Shown here one piece after another: positions 12,962 to 20,180 of a DNA stretch of 64,000 nt. This DNA is from Sulfuricurvum sp. (lineage in GTDB: Bacteria > Campylobacterota > Campylobacteria > Campylobacterales > Sulfurimonadaceae). The notes beneath the pieces were generated by a model. The model was not told the DNA's origin, did no database searches, and saw only the letters and a program-made list of their open reading frames with translations. A program made the translations under genes and the position numbers. Where the stretch lies: the NCBI GenBank assembly GCA_030696775.1, contig JAUYRN010000005.1:372001-436000 (forward strand), read 5' to 3'. How positions within the stretch are numbered: position 1 is the stretch's first letter; each line of letters begins with the position of its first letter.

Positions 12962-14617
12962 TTAATCGATTTCAACTCGATTTTTTCCTAATTTTTTAGC
13001 ACGGTAAAGGGCGCTGTCTGCACGTGCGATTGCTGTGTCAAAAGGTTCAGAATTTTTCATAAGAGTAACTCCAAAACTTGCAGTAATCATTTGTAAGTTT
13101 CCAAATGAATTGGTCGTGATTTTATGTCGAATATTTTGGGCTGTAGTGAGTAACTGACGCTTGGTTTGAATGTGAAGAATAACCAAGATCTCTTCTCCTC
13201 CCCAGCGTATGACATAATCTCCTTTGCGAATGGAGTTTTGGATGGTTTGAGACGTTTTTTTCAGAACATCGTCACCCATTGCATGTCCGTAAGTATCGTT
13301 AATGAGTTTAAAATCATCCAAATCAATCATCATAATTCCACTTTCGAATGATGAGTGCGTTTTAAAAGTGCCATCATTTAGAATGTACTCATAAAAATAT
13401 TGGCGATTAAAGATACCTGTGAGAGGGTCATGATACGCTTTATTGGAGAGAGAAGTTTCTTTGAGCCGCGAAGCTGTTATGTCTTGGAGCGTAATAGTGT
13501 GGTGTTGGTTTTGTAATAATTTGACATTGACTTGAAAGTAAAACATTTCTCCTGCTGATGAGGAGAGTTTAATGATGCGTTCTTGAGGAGAAACTAACAA
13601 GATTTGCTCAATCCAAAACTTCTCATCTTGATTTTTACCTAAATGGAAACATTCGTTATCTTCCATAAATCGATCACAAATACAGGCATTTTTTTCTACA
13701 AAAATCTCCAATGACGGAGTATTGAAAAAATTCAAAAACGATTGATTAGCGTAGAGAATACTTTCCCCGTTGGAGACAAAAACAATGTTCTCTTGGACGT
13801 TGAGAATGGACTGAATATACAGAGCTTGATCTTCGAGAAGTTTTTCATGAAGTTTTAACTCACTGATATCATGCTGTACCCCTACGTAATAGCGTACATG
13901 TCCATTTTCCATTAAAGGTGAAAGTGTAAGAAGATTGTGAAATAATTTTCCCTCTTTTGTATAATTTTTTAGTGGAACATTGCAGGATTTCCCTTTTGAA
14001 ATGGCTTCACGTACAATTAATGATCCTTCTTGGTCATGATTGTCTCCTCGGAGATAACGGCAGTTTTTTCCAACACTTTCTTCGAATGAGTATCCTGTTG
14101 TATCAGTAAAAGCTTTGTTTGCATAAATGAGTGGACAATCATCCAGTGTCGGATCGGCGATAGTAACGCCTGTATCGACTGTTTCGATAACCCGTTTAAA
14201 AAGTGCTGCTTCTTCGTACGAATTTTTTTGATCAGTAACATCGTTAAAAATAATCATAGCGGTTTTTTTGTCTGGAATGTTGGTGACAATGGTAGCATTG
14301 ACATCCAGCCATAAAAAGCTACCTGATGATTTTTGGACACCCAAAATCATATTAACAATATTGTTGCCTGAGTCAAAGAGTTTGTTGACGGGATAATCTT
14401 GTGGCAAAAGTTTTTTGTGATGTTCATCGATAAAAAACCAAGCGGAATCTGTTGCTTTTTTTCCGATCATTTCTTCAATCGAAAATCCAAAAATTTCGGA
14501 TGCTGCACGATTAGCATAAACGATTTGGGTGTCTGATTGGTGGATTACAACACCCTCATGAAGGTTGTCTAGGAGTGATTTTAACACTTTTGGATTGGTA
14601 TCAAAAAAATCATTCAT
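12962..14617 (-). CDS. soluble PAS-LOV-PAS-GGDEF protein, putative blue-light diguanylate cyclase
   Basis: A 551-residue soluble protein: PAS (about residues 10-130), LOV-type PAS (about 140-252), a third PAS-like domain (about 262-382, Cys-rich ACICDRF) and GGDEF (about 390-550). The second PAS carries the photoactive LOV motif GKNCRYLRG (183-191) with adduct cysteine C186, flavin-contacting N218 and N228, and Q248 in VGVQHDIS at the glutamine that flips on photoactivation. The motif has Tyr for Phe and Arg for the usual Gln after Leu. The cyclase signature reads GGEEI (473-477) rather than GGEEF, with an intact RxxD site (R464-D467) and a normal NDTYGHAMGDD loop. It probably couples blue light to c-di-GMP synthesis. 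LOV assignment is strong; cyclase activity is inference. Confidence 0.87.
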   Translation of the reverse strand: MNDFFDTNPKVLKSLLDNLHEGVVIHQSDTQIVYANRAASEIFGFSIEEMIGKKATDSAWFFIDEHHKKLLPQDYPVNKLFDSGNNIVNMILGVQKSSGSFLWLDVNATIVTNIPDKKTAMIIFNDVTDQKNSYEEAALFKRVIETVDTGVTIADPTLDDCPLIYANKAFTDTTGYSFEESVGKNCRYLRGDNHDQEGSLIVREAISKGKSCNVPLKNYTKEGKLFHNLLTLSPLMENGHVRYYVGVQHDISELKLHEKLLEDQALYIQSILNVQENIVFVSNGESILYANQSFLNFFNTPSLEIFVEKNACICDRFMEDNECFHLGKNQDEKFWIEQILLVSPQERIIKLSSSAGEMFYFQVNVKLLQNQHHTITLQDITASRLKETSLSNKAYHDPLTGIFNRQYFYEYILNDGTFKTHSSFESGIMMIDLDDFKLINDTYGHAMGDDVLKKTSQTIQNSIRKGDYVIRWGGEEILVILHIQTKRQLLTTAQNIRHKITTNSFGNLQMITASFGVTLMKNSEPFDTAIARADSALYRAKKLGKNRVEID

Positions 14618-14707: not shown

Positions 14708-15436
14708 TTAAAACTCACACATCCATTCGCGATAAAGTAAAGGGACATGAGAGCGTTGAAGGTTTGGATTTAACCGTTCAGAAATGGCAACGTGATCAAA
14801 AAAACGTTTCCAAAGGTGTTGATATTTTTCTTCATCAAAACTTCGTTGAGGCAGGTCATAATCATGAATGTTATGGAGCTCCAACGAATGTCCGTCGTAG
14901 ATTAATGCCATCGAGCGCTTGAGATCGTGAATGATAAAACGTTCGTGTTTAAAGCGTTTTTTGAAATGTCCTCCCATGAGCGGCAAGACATTTCGCGGTG
15001 GGGAGATTTGTGCGTAGAGAGTCCCATCTTCGAGTGTTTCAAAACGACTAAAAGCGTTCATTTTGTGAATGGTTCTGAGGGTGCGTTTTTGATACTCTTC
15101 GATGGCGTAGACGAGTGGATGAGAAATCATCTCTAAAAGAGAAGGCTCTTTAAATCCAAGGCGAATGTAACGAAGCAGATCGTTTTCAAAAGGCTGATCG
15201 TCGCATAAAAAAGTATGATAAATTTTTTCTTTGATTTTTTCCCCAAGTTGTTTTTCTATCGCATGGAGGAGTTTTAAAGCGTCTTTAGTATTTGTGGAGA
15301 TGTCGAGTATTTCATCAAATAAACCGATATCCACCTCTGATTTTGTGAGGAGATCGGGAAGTGTTTTGTCCGTATAGCTTTGTACTACAGAACTCAAAAA
15401 TCCTTCAAAACTTCCATCATACCTCCATATCATCAT
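14708..15436 (-). CDS. TIGR03915-type partner of radical-SAM DNA repair protein
   Basis: A 242-residue protein recognised as the TIGR03915 family (probable DNA metabolism protein), which nearly always sits next to a TIGR03916 radical-SAM protein, as here. The C-terminal half (FSRFETLEDGTLYAQISPPRNVLPLMGGHFKKRF) has the DUF4130 character also seen near uracil-DNA-glycosylase-like proteins. The start overlaps the radical-SAM stop by 4 bases, so the two are co-translated. The reaction is not known to me; a role in DNA modification or repair is the family annotation, not something visible in this sequence. Confidence 0.8.
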   Translation of the reverse strand: MMIWRYDGSFEGFLSSVVQSYTDKTLPDLLTKSEVDIGLFDEILDISTNTKDALKLLHAIEKQLGEKIKEKIYHTFLCDDQPFENDLLRYIRLGFKEPSLLEMISHPLVYAIEEYQKRTLRTIHKMNAFSRFETLEDGTLYAQISPPRNVLPLMGGHFKKRFKHERFIIHDLKRSMALIYDGHSLELHNIHDYDLPQRSFDEEKYQHLWKRFFDHVAISERLNPNLQRSHVPLLYREWMCEF

Positions 15437-16668
15437 AACTCTCCACTAATGCTCGCAAAATGGTCAAAAAGAGTTGGTTGTGCCGTTGGAAGCGGTTTTG
15501 GCAACGCTAAAAGCTTATATTCAAGTGCTTCGTAACTCATGAGAGTCTTTTCAGGCTGTTTGCCACCTACTGTGATGAAATAACGTGCCGATTTAAGTGA
15601 AATTTTCATGGCAATAAGATCATTGGTCGAAAGCTGTTTTTGACGACGAGCACGAAGAATTTTTTGAACACTTCGTGCTCCAAATCCAGGAATACGCAGT
15701 AATGTCTCTTTTTCGGCACGATTGATCTCGATGGGAAAATAGTGAAGATTGCGCAATGCCCATGCGAGTTTAGGATCAAACCGTTCGTCTAAATAGGGAT
15801 GTTCTTCGTTGACGATCTCATCGACCTTAAAATCGTAAAAACGCAGCAGCCAATCGGCTTGATACAAACGGTGCTCTCGTAAAAGGGGAGGGGGAACGTT
15901 TAGGGCAGGGAGATTTTTATCATTGTTCACGGGGATATATGCTGAATAATAGACCCGTTTTAGCATTGCTTTGGAGTAGAGAGAATCACTCAGGCGCATA
16001 ATCTCGAAATCGCTTTCTGGGGTTGCTCCTATAATCATCTGTGTGCTCATGCCGATAGGACGTTTACCATTTTCCAAGGCGTAATTTTTGGCTTGCAGGA
16101 GGGGGAGAAAAACTTTTTCTTTGGTTTTTTCAGGGGCTAAGAGCTGAAGACTTTTAGAACTGGGAAGTTCGATGTTGGAGCTGACCCGATCAGCAAGGAG
16201 TGAGGTAGCAATAATAAGTTCTTGAGCAGCTCCCGGAATGAGTTTGACATGAATGTAACCGTTAAAGTGATACTCGTGTCGCAGAAGCTGAAGTGTCTTG
16301 AGCAACAAACTCATAGTATGGTCTTCGTTGCTGATGATACCGGAGCTTAAAAAAAGTCCTTCGATGTAGTTGCGTTTATAAAAATTTATGGTGAGTTCTG
16401 CCACTTCACGGGGCGTAAAAGCCGCGCGCGGTCGATCATTGCTGATGCGATTGATGCAGTAGGAGCAATCATAAATGCAGTAGTTGGTGAGTAAGATTTT
16501 AAGCAAGGAGATACAGCGTCCGTCGGCGGAATACGCATGGCATACGCCGCTTGTCCCCGTTGCACCCAACCCTCCATAGTTCTCTTCGCGTGTTGAGCCT
16601 GAAGAGGAACAGGAAACATCGTATTTTGCAGATTCTGTAAGAATGGTTAGTTTTTCATCGATAGTCAT
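15433..16668 (-). CDS. radical SAM protein, putative DNA modification/repair (TIGR03916)
   Basis: A 411-residue radical-SAM enzyme. The [4Fe-4S]-binding cysteines are in NYCIYDCSYC (CxxxCxxC, near residues 62-71). A C-terminal helix-hairpin-helix (TLLRIPGFGARSVQKILRARRQ) suggests DNA binding. These two features together define the TIGR03916 family. A further pair of cysteines upstream (YDVSCSSSGS, GVCHAYSADGRC) is also typical. It is the first gene of a two-gene unit with the TIGR03915 protein. The pair lies between the LOV-GGDEF gene and the EAL/BLUF genes, all but BLUF on the same strand. The family is well recognised, but its substrate is not established to my knowledge. Confidence 0.86.
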   Translation of the reverse strand: MTIDEKLTILTESAKYDVSCSSSGSTREENYGGLGATGTSGVCHAYSADGRCISLLKILLTNYCIYDCSYCINRISNDRPRAAFTPREVAELTINFYKRNYIEGLFLSSGIISNEDHTMSLLLKTLQLLRHEYHFNGYIHVKLIPGAAQELIIATSLLADRVSSNIELPSSKSLQLLAPEKTKEKVFLPLLQAKNYALENGKRPIGMSTQMIIGATPESDFEIMRLSDSLYSKAMLKRVYYSAYIPVNNDKNLPALNVPPPLLREHRLYQADWLLRFYDFKVDEIVNEEHPYLDERFDPKLAWALRNLHYFPIEINRAEKETLLRIPGFGARSVQKILRARRQKQLSTNDLIAMKISLKSARYFITVGGKQPEKTLMSYEALEYKLLALPKPLPTAQPTLFDHFASISGEL

Positions 16669-16724: not shown

Positions 16725-17780
16725 CTATAGCTTTCGAATCGGTTCAGCTGAGGGTTTTCCGAAATAATATCCTTGTGCCAAATTAGCCCCTTCACGGGTA
16801 CAAAAAGCGGCTTCTTCCGCTCGCTCGATACCTTCGGCTAAAACGAGAATATTACTTTCTTTAGCGATTTGAACGATTGCTCGAAAAATAGATTGATTGA
16901 CGATATTCGTATCAATATGATCAATAATTTCACGATCTATTTTTACAATGTCAGGAAGCAGTTTCGCAATCATGTTCAGTGAAGAATAGCCGCTTCCGAC
17001 ATCATCGAGCGCGACCATAAACCCTTGTGATTTGTAATAATCCAAAATCTTTTTTAGGTGATCTAAATCTGCAACATGATCGCTTTCTATGACTTCAAAA
17101 ATGATATTTTTAGGATTAAAATCGAGTTGTTTTGCCCATTTTACCGTCGACTGTAGGCAGTGCTCAGGATCATAAATAGCGGTTGGGATAAAATTGATAA
17201 AGACTTTTGAAGCAATATTTTTGACAGCAGCAGTTTTGAGTGAGGTTTCGCGACATGCACGATCGAGATAAAAGAGCATATCTCCCTCTCGTCCCCATCG
17301 AAACAACGTATCGGGATATATGAGTTTACCCTCATCGCTGACACCGCGAGCCAAGGATTCGTAGCCATAAATCGTACTGGAAGCTAAATCAACAATGGGT
17401 TGAAAATGGGTAGTCAGAGCTCCTTTTGTAATAAGGCTTGAAAGTTCCACGGCTCCCATTAAATCTCGGTATTCTTGCAGAGTACGCATTGTTTTTAACT
17501 TCGATGGGGTGAGATTTTCGCCGAACTGGAGAAAAAGTAAACGTATTCCGCTCCGCTGTATTTTTGAAAAACTTTCAAAGACACATAGATCTTCTAAAAA
17601 AATTGAAAAATTGTTAATACTTACCCAAAGAGTTTCTGAATCTTCCACTTTGTAATTGATATTTTGAGCGGTTAAATATAAAGCAAACTTATCGGCAAGT
17701 TCGGTTACAGAACAACTCACAATTAGCTCACCTGCTGATTGAGGAATTACTGGAAGGGTTTGACATTTTACACAGCTCAT
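16725..17780 (-). CDS. soluble EAL-domain c-di-GMP phosphodiesterase
   Basis: A 351-residue protein without membrane segments. Residues 1-115 form an unrecognised N-terminal region beginning with a CxxC (C3, C6), and residues about 118-351 an EAL domain. The domain looks catalytically complete: E141 in ESL, N196, E229, D259-D260 in ALDDVGSG, K280, E316 and Q336. It should hydrolyse c-di-GMP to pGpG. The phrase NFIPTAIYDPEHCL is, from memory, typical of EAL domains in BLUF-EAL photoreceptors such as BlrP1. This protein lacks a BLUF domain of its own, but a free BLUF protein is encoded divergently 135 bases away. Control by that BLUF protein is inference from arrangement. Confidence 0.9.
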   Translation of the reverse strand: MSCVKCQTLPVIPQSAGELIVSCSVTELADKFALYLTAQNINYKVEDSETLWVSINNFSIFLEDLCVFESFSKIQRSGIRLLFLQFGENLTPSKLKTMRTLQEYRDLMGAVELSSLITKGALTTHFQPIVDLASSTIYGYESLARGVSDEGKLIYPDTLFRWGREGDMLFYLDRACRETSLKTAAVKNIASKVFINFIPTAIYDPEHCLQSTVKWAKQLDFNPKNIIFEVIESDHVADLDHLKKILDYYKSQGFMVALDDVGSGYSSLNMIAKLLPDIVKIDREIIDHIDTNIVNQSIFRAIVQIAKESNILVLAEGIERAEEAAFCTREGANLAQGYYFGKPSAEPIRKL

Positions 17781-17915
17781 TTTTAACCTTTTTTTATCAA
17801 ATTATAGATAGCTTTACAGGTTATTGGTAGTTGTTGTGTGTCAACTCAAAGAAAGTATTATCATATATTCAATCTTAGTGGTTTTAGTGTAAAATTCATG
17901 ACCAAAAGGAATCGA

Positions 17916-18320
17916 ATGAAACGTTTAATATACAGCAGCTGTTCTTCTGAAAATATTGATTTCAAAATCGTTGGCGAGATTCTTACCCATGCGGTGAAGA
18001 AAAATAAAGAAAAAAGTATTACGGGAATGATGGTGTACGACGGGAAGTACTTTCTTCAGTGCATCGAAGGAGATGAAGCCCTCATCGATGACTTGTGGAA
18101 AAAACTAACAGAAGATACCCGGCACCATTCTCTTTACATTAACGGTACAGAGTTTGATGACAAACGGTTGTTTCCAGACTGGAATATGGGATACATGAAC
18201 AATAGACAAGAAATTCAGAAAATAATCAACAGTATTACAGGAAACAAAATATTTTCCCCCGAAACACTTAATTATACACATGCAAAATTACTCCTTTTGC
18301 AACTCTCTTTTATTCTTTAG
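17916..18320 (+). CDS. stand-alone BLUF-domain blue-light receptor
   Basis: A 134-residue protein that is a single BLUF domain plus a short helical tail, like cyanobacterial PixD. The photocycle residues match PixD with constant spacing: Y6 (LIYSS), N30, Q48 (FLQCIEG), W89 and M91 (WNMGY) correspond to PixD Y8, N32, Q50, W91 and M93. It should bind flavin and respond to blue light. The start at 17916 follows AAAAGGA (17904-17910); the frame is open further upstream but those residues do not belong to the fold. It is divergent from the soluble EAL phosphodiesterase, so the two may form a split version of the fused BLUF-EAL proteins. There is no output domain, so it must act through a partner. 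Confidence 0.92.
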   Translation: MKRLIYSSCSSENIDFKIVGEILTHAVKKNKEKSITGMMVYDGKYFLQCIEGDEALIDDLWKKLTEDTRHHSLYINGTEFDDKRLFPDWNMGYMNNRQEIQKIINSITGNKIFSPETLNYTHAKLLLLQLSFIL

Positions 18321-18486: not shown

Positions 18487-18562
18487 TCAACAAACATTAT
18501 CGAGCTACAAACTGTTTGCTTTACAGTGTAAAATACATAAAATACAAATCTTGGAGTTTACT

Positions 18563-18919
18563 ATGCCTCATATCGTTTTAGAAAATATTAATTCGACCCA
18601 AAAAGCGTATGAATCGATTACCCCGTTTTCAGAAAGAATCGAAGGTGGTATTTTAAAAGTGAGTGACAAATATATCAATAGCTCTGCGCAAAGCGCTCTT
18701 ATTGAATCAATCGCGGTTGAAGCTGGAAAAAATCAAACATTTTTTATTCAGCTTTCAGAGAAAAAAACATCCATCACTGTACGGTTATTACCGCTAACCG
18801 ATCCGGAAAAGACACCAGGTGTTAAAACCGTCATGGCTCGCATTGCTAAACAAATCAAAGATTCCGACTCTTCTATTTTTTATGGAAAAACCAATCTTGA
18901 TGAATATCTTCTCCATTAG
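18563..18919 (+). CDS. small hypothetical protein, possibly tautomerase-like
   Basis: A 118-residue soluble protein. The ATG at 18563 has a TTGGAG ribosome site at 18551-18556; the in-frame TTG at 18551 is part of that site and not a start. The sequence starts MPHIVLEN, and the Pro-2 start together with PHxxLE recalls 5-carboxymethyl-2-hydroxymuconate isomerase-like members of the tautomerase superfamily, where Pro-2 is catalytic. Length fits, but the rest (IRLLPLTD-like TVRLLPLTDPEK, ending NLDEYLLH) gives only weak support. It stands alone in a region of gene remnants. Function is unknown. Confidence 0.62.
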   Translation: MPHIVLENINSTQKAYESITPFSERIEGGILKVSDKYINSSAQSALIESIAVEAGKNQTFFIQLSEKKTSITVRLLPLTDPEKTPGVKTVMARIAKQIKDSDSSIFYGKTNLDEYLLH

Positions 18920-19111: not shown

Positions 19112-19630
19112 TTATGGCTGCTGTGTCGTCCAATAGAGTTTACTGGCGTCGTATCCAAGATCTGGCAAACGGTTAAGAATCGATTTTTTATCTGCATCAC
19201 TGAGAACTTTTGTTCTGCTGAGTATCCAAAGATATTTACGGCTAGGATCGCCTACAACACTGTATTGATAGTTGTCTCCCAGCATCAACACCCAATAATC
19301 TCCATAAAAAGGACGAAAAAAGCTCACTTCGAGCTTGCTGTTATTGCTGTCTTTGAGTGCGTAGGCTCGACCGTTTGCTTCACCGCTTTGGACGCCGTTT
19401 GTATCAAAACATCGGTTGGTAACGGCTATATAGTCCTCTTTACCAACGTATTGGGCAGTTGCTCCTGCGCATCCTGTTTCAAAACGGTTTTCATAACGGG
19501 CAATTTCGATCCATTTTCCGCTGTAGCGTTCTAGATCAACGCGTTCGACGGTGGCAAGAGGAGCGGATGGAGTTTTAGAGCATCCACTTAAAAAGATCAA
19601 TATCGTTAGGGCTAAATAAACTATTTTCAT
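19112..19630 (-). CDS. blc: bacterial lipocalin (Blc-like) lipoprotein
   Basis: A 172-residue outer-membrane lipoprotein: signal peptide with lipobox LSGC (lipidated Cys at about residue 17), then a lipocalin beta-barrel. The first structurally conserved region is RYSGKWIEIARYENRFETGC, with the invariant G-x-W. The second includes GDYWVLMLGDNYQYSVVGDPSRKYLWILSRT and the third RT-containing strand is present. Blc proteins bind fatty acids and lysophospholipids in the envelope. It lies 11 bases downstream of the broken glutathione peroxidase gene on the same strand and immediately precedes the nrdB fragment, within a zone of decayed genes. It appears intact. Confidence 0.9.
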   Translation of the reverse strand: MKIVYLALTILIFLSGCSKTPSAPLATVERVDLERYSGKWIEIARYENRFETGCAGATAQYVGKEDYIAVTNRCFDTNGVQSGEANGRAYALKDSNNSKLEVSFFRPFYGDYWVLMLGDNYQYSVVGDPSRKYLWILSRTKVLSDADKKSILNRLPDLGYDASKLYWTTQQP

Positions 19631-19641
19631 AAGGTCTCCAT

Positions 19642-20180
19642 TTAGAGAAGTTTTTCGATGTCTGAAGCTATCGATTCAGGGGATGTCGAGGGAGCATAAC
19701 GCTTGATGACTTTTCCCTTTTGATCGACAAGAAATTTTGTAAAATTCCATTTAATCGCTTCACTTCCTAAAATCCCTTTCGCATTTTGTTTTAGATGGGT
19801 GTACAGTGGATGAGCATTGTTTCCGTTTACATCGATTTTTGCAAACATTGGAAAGGTTACGCCATAGCTTATACGGCAAAAGTTTTCGATCCCTTTTTCA
19901 TCCAGCGGTTCTTGTCCAGCAAACTGATTGCATGGGATTCCTTTTCTTGAATTTATAAAAAGTATAATAAGGATTAGAGTTTTTCTAACCCCTCCAACTG
20001 CGGCGTAAATCCGCATCCGCTTGCGGTGTTGACAATTAGCAAGACTTTACCCTTGTACGGTGCCAAAATGGTTTTTTCATGATGAATGGTGACGACTTCA
20101 AAATCGTAAAGTGACTGGGTTGGTGTTGCCATAAGTGTACTCCATGTAGTGATTAATAGGATAAAACGTTTCAATTTCAT
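19642..20180 (-). pseudogene. frameshifted glutathione peroxidase-like gene
   Basis: Two minus-strand frames together make one glutathione peroxidase. The first (20180 down to about 19974) has a signal peptide, SLYDFEVVTIHHEK, YKGKVLLIVNTASGCGFTPQ with the peroxidatic Cys, and stops after LEGLEKL. The second continues in another frame with IPCNQFAGQEP, YGVTFPMFAKIDVNG and IKWNFTKFLVDQKG to the normal end. Between LEKL and the PCNQF motif there are 38 bases where 39 would keep frame, so one base is missing, and the residues there match the family poorly, which hints at more than one change. It is either a pseudogene or an assembly error. Surrounding decay favours a true pseudogene. Confidence 0.8.

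Follow-up and report, generated by a model that had tools for sequence, protein, structure and literature searches.

Does a free BLUF photoreceptor control the c-di-GMP phosphodiesterase encoded next to it, and is such a pair a fused BLUF-EAL protein that has come apart or a partnership between proteins of separate descent? The question is raised by a 64,000-nucleotide stretch of DNA from Sulfuricurvum (the window), in which two genes diverge from a short intergenic region:

16725–17780, minus strand: gene for an EAL phosphodiesterase of 351 residues, of the CxxC/N-terminal domain-EAL family (Pfam, catalytic residues, AlphaFold2 model)
16752–17447, minus strand: EAL domain, residues 112–343 (Pfam; closest solved structure VcEAL)
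17448–17780, minus strand: N-terminal domain, residues 1–111, with C3xxC6 and then a ferredoxin-like fold over residues 17–85 (AlphaFold2 model, alignment)
17781–17915, no strand: intergenic region of 135 bp common to both divergent genes, aligned in three species
17916–18320, plus strand: gene for a free BLUF photoreceptor of 134 residues (Pfam BLUF match, residue check)

The two genes lie where the preliminary description of this DNA had placed them, a BLUF gene divergent from that of a complete EAL protein, and both give Pfam matches far beyond chance (PF04940 over BLUF residues 1–92, E = 1.6e-23; PF00563 over EAL residues 112–343, E = 9.5e-53). The photocycle residues that it had listed for the BLUF protein (Y6, N30, Q48, W89 and M91) are all kept and align with those of other BLUF proteins, and the completeness that it had claimed for the EAL active site is borne out by ten residues (E141, N196, E229, E232, D259, D260, K280, D282, E316 and Q336) that are invariant in 41 homologues. 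AlphaFold2 models the whole EAL protein with a mean pLDDT of 92. The open reading frame listed for the BLUF gene begins at GTG 17838, but ATG 17916 is the likely start because it is preceded by a conserved AAAAGGAA ribosome-binding site. A literature search on BLUF proteins in Sulfuricurvum found nothing relevant. In a second BLUF protein of genome G000 (L040:5070–5486; G000:C35:170096) N30 is replaced by threonine and Q48 by histidine, and the latter replacement is also found in the BLUF protein of G1105; given these substitutions, BLUF photochemistry has probably been lost or changed in both.

Work on PapB-PapA of Rhodopseudomonas palustris, which is the closest working precedent for the window pair, was reportedly published by Kanazawa et al. 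in 2010. PapB-PapA is a non-covalent, light-activated BLUF/EAL heterotetramer (PMC8846402) in which the EAL protein affects the BLUF photocycle (PMC3989770). The window likewise encodes a free BLUF protein with intact photocycle residues and a separate EAL phosphodiesterase with intact catalytic residues, the features of a pair of this type, and light control in trans, which has been shown for PapB-PapA, is proposed here. The systems differ in that descriptions of PapA give it an EAL domain alone, to which the window EAL protein adds a CxxC/ferredoxin-like domain at its N-terminus, and in that the window genes come from another phylum, are divergent and lie in a repair-gene neighbourhood. BlrP1 and YcgF (BluF) share the BLUF input and EAL output but are fused on one chain, with an EAL domain of another lineage; the YcgF of E. 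coli is catalytically degenerate (PMC3509220). Photoactive yellow protein operons, which contain EAL and GGDEF genes (PMC12826048), also set a small free photoreceptor gene beside genes for c-di-GMP enzymes, although the photoreceptor is of another type.

The preliminary description took the pair for a two-component version of YcgF/BlrP1, a reading that is not supported if it is meant as a line of descent. Among 45 EAL domains placed in one tree, with short EALs such as that of L204 standing in for PapA, the BlrP1-type BLUF-EAL fusions and the PapA-like short EALs form one clade with a support of 100/97, and the window EAL domain falls outside both the fusions and the short EALs. The pair is therefore not a split YcgF/BlrP1, and its two domains lie on two divergent genes rather than on one chain. 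A true splitting of an ancestral fused protein, which the tree disfavours, is accordingly very improbable: the two domains are identical in kind to those of the fusions, and BlrP1-like fusions occur within the same family (G236, G401), but the fusion EAL domains group with the short ones and apart from that of the window, which has an N-terminal domain of its own that is found in many phyla with no BLUF nearby. We propose instead that the window pair is PapB-PapA-like in its action, with an EAL protein from another lineage than the short-EAL stand-ins. One Sulfuricurvum protein of approximately 815 residues (G001, L050:6275–8722) carries an EAL followed by a BLUF domain, a fusion order unlike that of BlrP1.

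Membership of the lineage to which the window EAL protein belongs is recognised by an N-terminal CxxC, an N-terminal domain of approximately 110 residues and the sequence NFxPxxIYDPxxC within the EAL domain, all of which the protein has. C3, C6 and C208 (the last in the YDPxxC motif) are invariant in 41 family sequences from many phyla, with members in Campylobacterota, Geobacter relatives, Deferribacterota, Chromatiales, Clostridia, Myxococcota, Cyanobacteriota and Alphaproteobacteria; Deinococcus members have CxC instead. Cyanobacterial members (L128, L136, L144, L147, L150, L160 and L171) reach approximately 730–745 residues through an extra C-terminal region. The motif that had earlier been noted as common to the window protein and fused BLUF-EAL proteins is indeed present, but it is not specific to them, as NF-P-(A/S)(I/V)Y-P--C is found throughout the CxxC-EAL family and in the short EALs. 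The nearest solved structure to the EAL domain is VcEAL, the standalone EAL protein of Vibrio cholerae (6ifq, 6ij2; Z 29.8; phmmer 5e-52; 37–38% identity), which groups with the short EALs in the 45-domain tree and whose aligned chain has no N-terminal domain of this kind. RimA (NF052265) is the best NCBIfam model, but its score of 201 bits is far under the family cut-off of 430 bits.

The N-terminal region with a CxxC, another feature of the preliminary description, measures approximately 112 residues with the cysteines at C3 and C6, and in the AlphaFold2 model residues 17–85 have a beta-alpha-beta-beta-alpha-beta, ferredoxin-like fold. A structure search with this domain gave no specific solved match, but generic ferredoxin-like folds with Z < 7, including a region of PelD. 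The domain may conceivably be a degenerate BLUF, whose general topology it has, but no BLUF was among the structural matches listed. Since this region is found in many phyla with no BLUF nearby, it is not a BLUF-specific docking domain. By the same token, a family that mostly lacks a BLUF nearby presumably has some other usual input, and the BLUF protein appears to be an added, recruited one.

How closely, then, do the two genes keep together? Co-occurrence and adjacency across Campylobacterota, the check suggested at the outset, give evidence on both sides. Among 156 Sulfurimonadaceae genomes, 14 have a free BLUF (four further genomes have a BLUF in long frames), 16 have an intact EAL protein with the N-terminal domain and eight have both, where approximately 1.4 would be expected by chance (hypergeometric p ~4e-6, relatedness ignored). 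The EAL gene is thus present in 8/14 free-BLUF genomes versus 16/156 overall, and missing from six of the 14. Within a set of 60 relatives the divergent pair is found in G000, G012 and G009, all Sulfuricurvum; the two genes lie within approximately 4.4 kb of each other in G031, and G028 has a BLUF without the EAL. The divergent pair is missing for seven of the ten full-length Sulfuricurvum EAL orthologues in this set, and six of the ten genomes concerned have no BLUF at all. More widely, a BLUF lies near the EAL gene in only 4/29 Campylobacterota loci, and at 80 named GTDB EAL loci one is nearby only in those of Sulfuricurvum; in a sample of the phylum, eight of 397 genomes have a BLUF over the cut-off, 16 the N-terminal domain and two both.

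Where the genes are neighbours, the arrangement varies. Between G009 and G000 the divergent pair is retained although its flanking genes have changed on either side; adjacency is conserved for 52/87 gene pairs on these contigs (9/13 divergent pairs), a high background that makes this comparison, taken alone, weak to modest evidence. In G1136, which belongs to another genus, genes for HMP kinase, an NMT1-like protein, the EAL protein, a 122-residue protein and BLUF form one co-directional string, so that one gene lies between the pair, and a second BLUF gene adjoins an ABC1 gene of the same cluster. In a tree whose deep branches lack resolution, the BLUF proteins of G1136 and those of the window clade are each supported as a separate group, so that recruitment of BLUF may have happened twice. 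In Alphaproteobacteria a free BLUF gene lies beside a short EAL gene in L204, and L198 offers an independent instance of the divergent arrangement, in which the short EAL gene opposite the BLUF gene is split between two frames.

The surroundings of the pair include a second photoreceptor gene and several genes of repair or stress families:

12962–14617, minus strand: gene for a LOV-PAS-GGDEF diguanylate cyclase with the photo-Cys motif GKNCRYLRG (LOV domain against phototropin, E 6e-26)
14708–15436, minus strand: TIGR03915 putative DNA repair protein, DUF4130 (NCBIfam)
15433–16668, minus strand: putative DNA modification/repair radical SAM protein, TIGR03916 (NCBIfam E 4e-173, over the cut-off)
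18551–18919, plus strand: 122-residue protein, with a promoter-like element of its own at 18505–18534
19112–19630, minus strand: lipocalin, which recurs next to the EAL gene in relatives

The cyclase gene, which has both the LOV photo-Cys motif and a GGDEF domain, lies three genes away from the EAL gene within the window and directly downstream of it in G012, the closest relative. The locus thus holds two kinds of blue-light receptor together with enzymes for making and breaking c-di-GMP, and the presence of the cyclase in G000 and G012 suggests an opposing blue-light arm. Across the 29 Campylobacterota loci, recurrent neighbours of the EAL gene are those for ABC1 kinase, FAD/NAD oxidoreductase, 2-thiouracil desulfurase/DUF1722, photolyase, the TIGR03916/TIGR03915 repair proteins, lipocalin, glutathione peroxidase and SRPBCC proteins, gene families that we read as a setting of light damage or oxidative stress. 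The 122-residue protein has no Pfam or NCBIfam match above the cut-off; its gene is linked to EAL and/or BLUF in several genera. The glutathione peroxidase gene of the window (19642–20180, minus strand) is seemingly in two overlapping frames where relatives have one, which may be real or an assembly error. An Rfam search found no RNA elements.

Two sequence elements in the intergenic region bear on expression:

17801–17830, minus strand: upstream of the EAL gene, promoter-like element CTACCAA-N17-TATAAT, which the majority of Campylobacterota EAL orthologues share, as do several genes in the neighbourhood
17885–17896, plus strand: TAGTGTAAAATT, probable -10 region of the BLUF gene, identical in three species

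Neither the first of these nor the LOV-PAS-GGDEF gene had been picked up in the preliminary description. Its general form is CTACnAA-N17-TAnnAT, and in the window it lies approximately 20 bp upstream of the EAL start. With a matrix trained on seven of 32 EAL genes, 22 of the 32 rank among the top 2% of background scores, and the element is also found before the untrained EAL orthologues of G1119 and G1145 and in untrained families (SRPBCC 4/7, 122-residue gene 3/4, NMT1 3/4); it precedes none of six BLUF genes. There is no genome-wide enrichment (317 hits versus 427 in a reversed-sequence control), so that its placement ahead of these genes is its one notable feature. It may mark a regulon of EAL, SRPBCC, NMT1-like and 122-residue genes across Campylobacterota. 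B12-dependent LitR/CarH was rejected as the regulator of the cluster because the B12-binding hits lie in open frames of mostly ~1,160–1,190 residues, a length that fits methionine synthase, and a search for ECF sigma factors by PF08281 told nothing, since almost every genome has a match.

Taken together, the intact residues, co-occurrence above chance and adjacency in several genomes support the reading that the two genes encode a non-covalent, blue-light-regulated c-di-GMP phosphodiesterase working like PapB-PapA, to which we assign a probability of approximately 0.52. The BLUF protein would bind FAD, and blue light would rearrange the hydrogen-bond network around Y6 and Q48; the change would pass through the C-terminal helices of BLUF to the EAL enzyme by physical contact, their light-driven movement altering EAL activity by analogy with PapB-PapA (PMC8846402) and BlrP1 (PMC3989770). 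Breakdown of c-di-GMP would thereby be altered and, by the same analogy, be higher in the light. Light probably controls the phosphodiesterase directly. Against this stand the many EAL orthologues without a neighbouring BLUF, which are the majority, the free-BLUF genomes without the EAL, the position of the EAL domain outside the BlrP1/PapA-like clade, and a promoter element that is missing from the BLUF gene.

The main alternative, possible though doubtful, is that the two proteins never touch and merely share a gene neighbourhood concerned with light damage or oxidative stress, the BLUF protein acting elsewhere and the EAL protein being governed either transcriptionally or through the CxxC/ferredoxin-like domain that it carries. 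In many Campylobacterota the EAL gene lies beside those for photolyase, radical SAM/DUF4130 proteins, lipocalin, glutathione peroxidase, SRPBCC and ABC1 whether or not a BLUF is present, it has its promoter-like element in common with several of these stress-type neighbours, and BLUF genes without a CxxC-EAL are found in the same neighbourhood (G028, G360). Such an account is harder to reconcile with the tight linkage of the genes, in two different arrangements, across four genomes from two genera, or with the co-occurrence statistic given above. It is rather improbable that BLUF acts on another neighbour, the 122-residue protein or a cyclase, in place of the EAL protein. The free BLUF proteins PixD and BlsA do use varied partners, and the 122-residue gene adjoins BLUF in the window, G012 and G1136, but it is missing beside the pair in G009 and lies near an EAL gene with no BLUF nearby in G1145, G330 and L101.

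If the PapB-PapA-like reading is true, trans-acting BLUF control of c-di-GMP takes in the Campylobacterota and a further EAL lineage, a separable light-controlled phosphodiesterase is on offer, and the occurrence of blue-light sensors beside repair genes in non-photosynthetic sulfur oxidisers becomes easier to explain. The EAL family with the invariant CxxC, large and so far uncharacterised, is a further point of interest. A broader scenario, unlikely in all its parts at once, is that this ancient CxxC/ferredoxin-like-EAL family, with another usual input (perhaps redox or metal through the CxxC), was captured by a free BLUF at least twice in Sulfurimonadaceae, giving a dual-input enzyme that would form, with the LOV-GGDEF cyclase, an opposing blue-light c-di-GMP switch within a regulon for photodamage repair that has a promoter class to itself. 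Where BLUF is absent, a 115-residue protein (L048:5247–5594; homologues in L043, L047 and L089) recurs near the EAL gene, and as its gene overlaps the EAL start in L048, it is a candidate alternative partner of the EAL protein.
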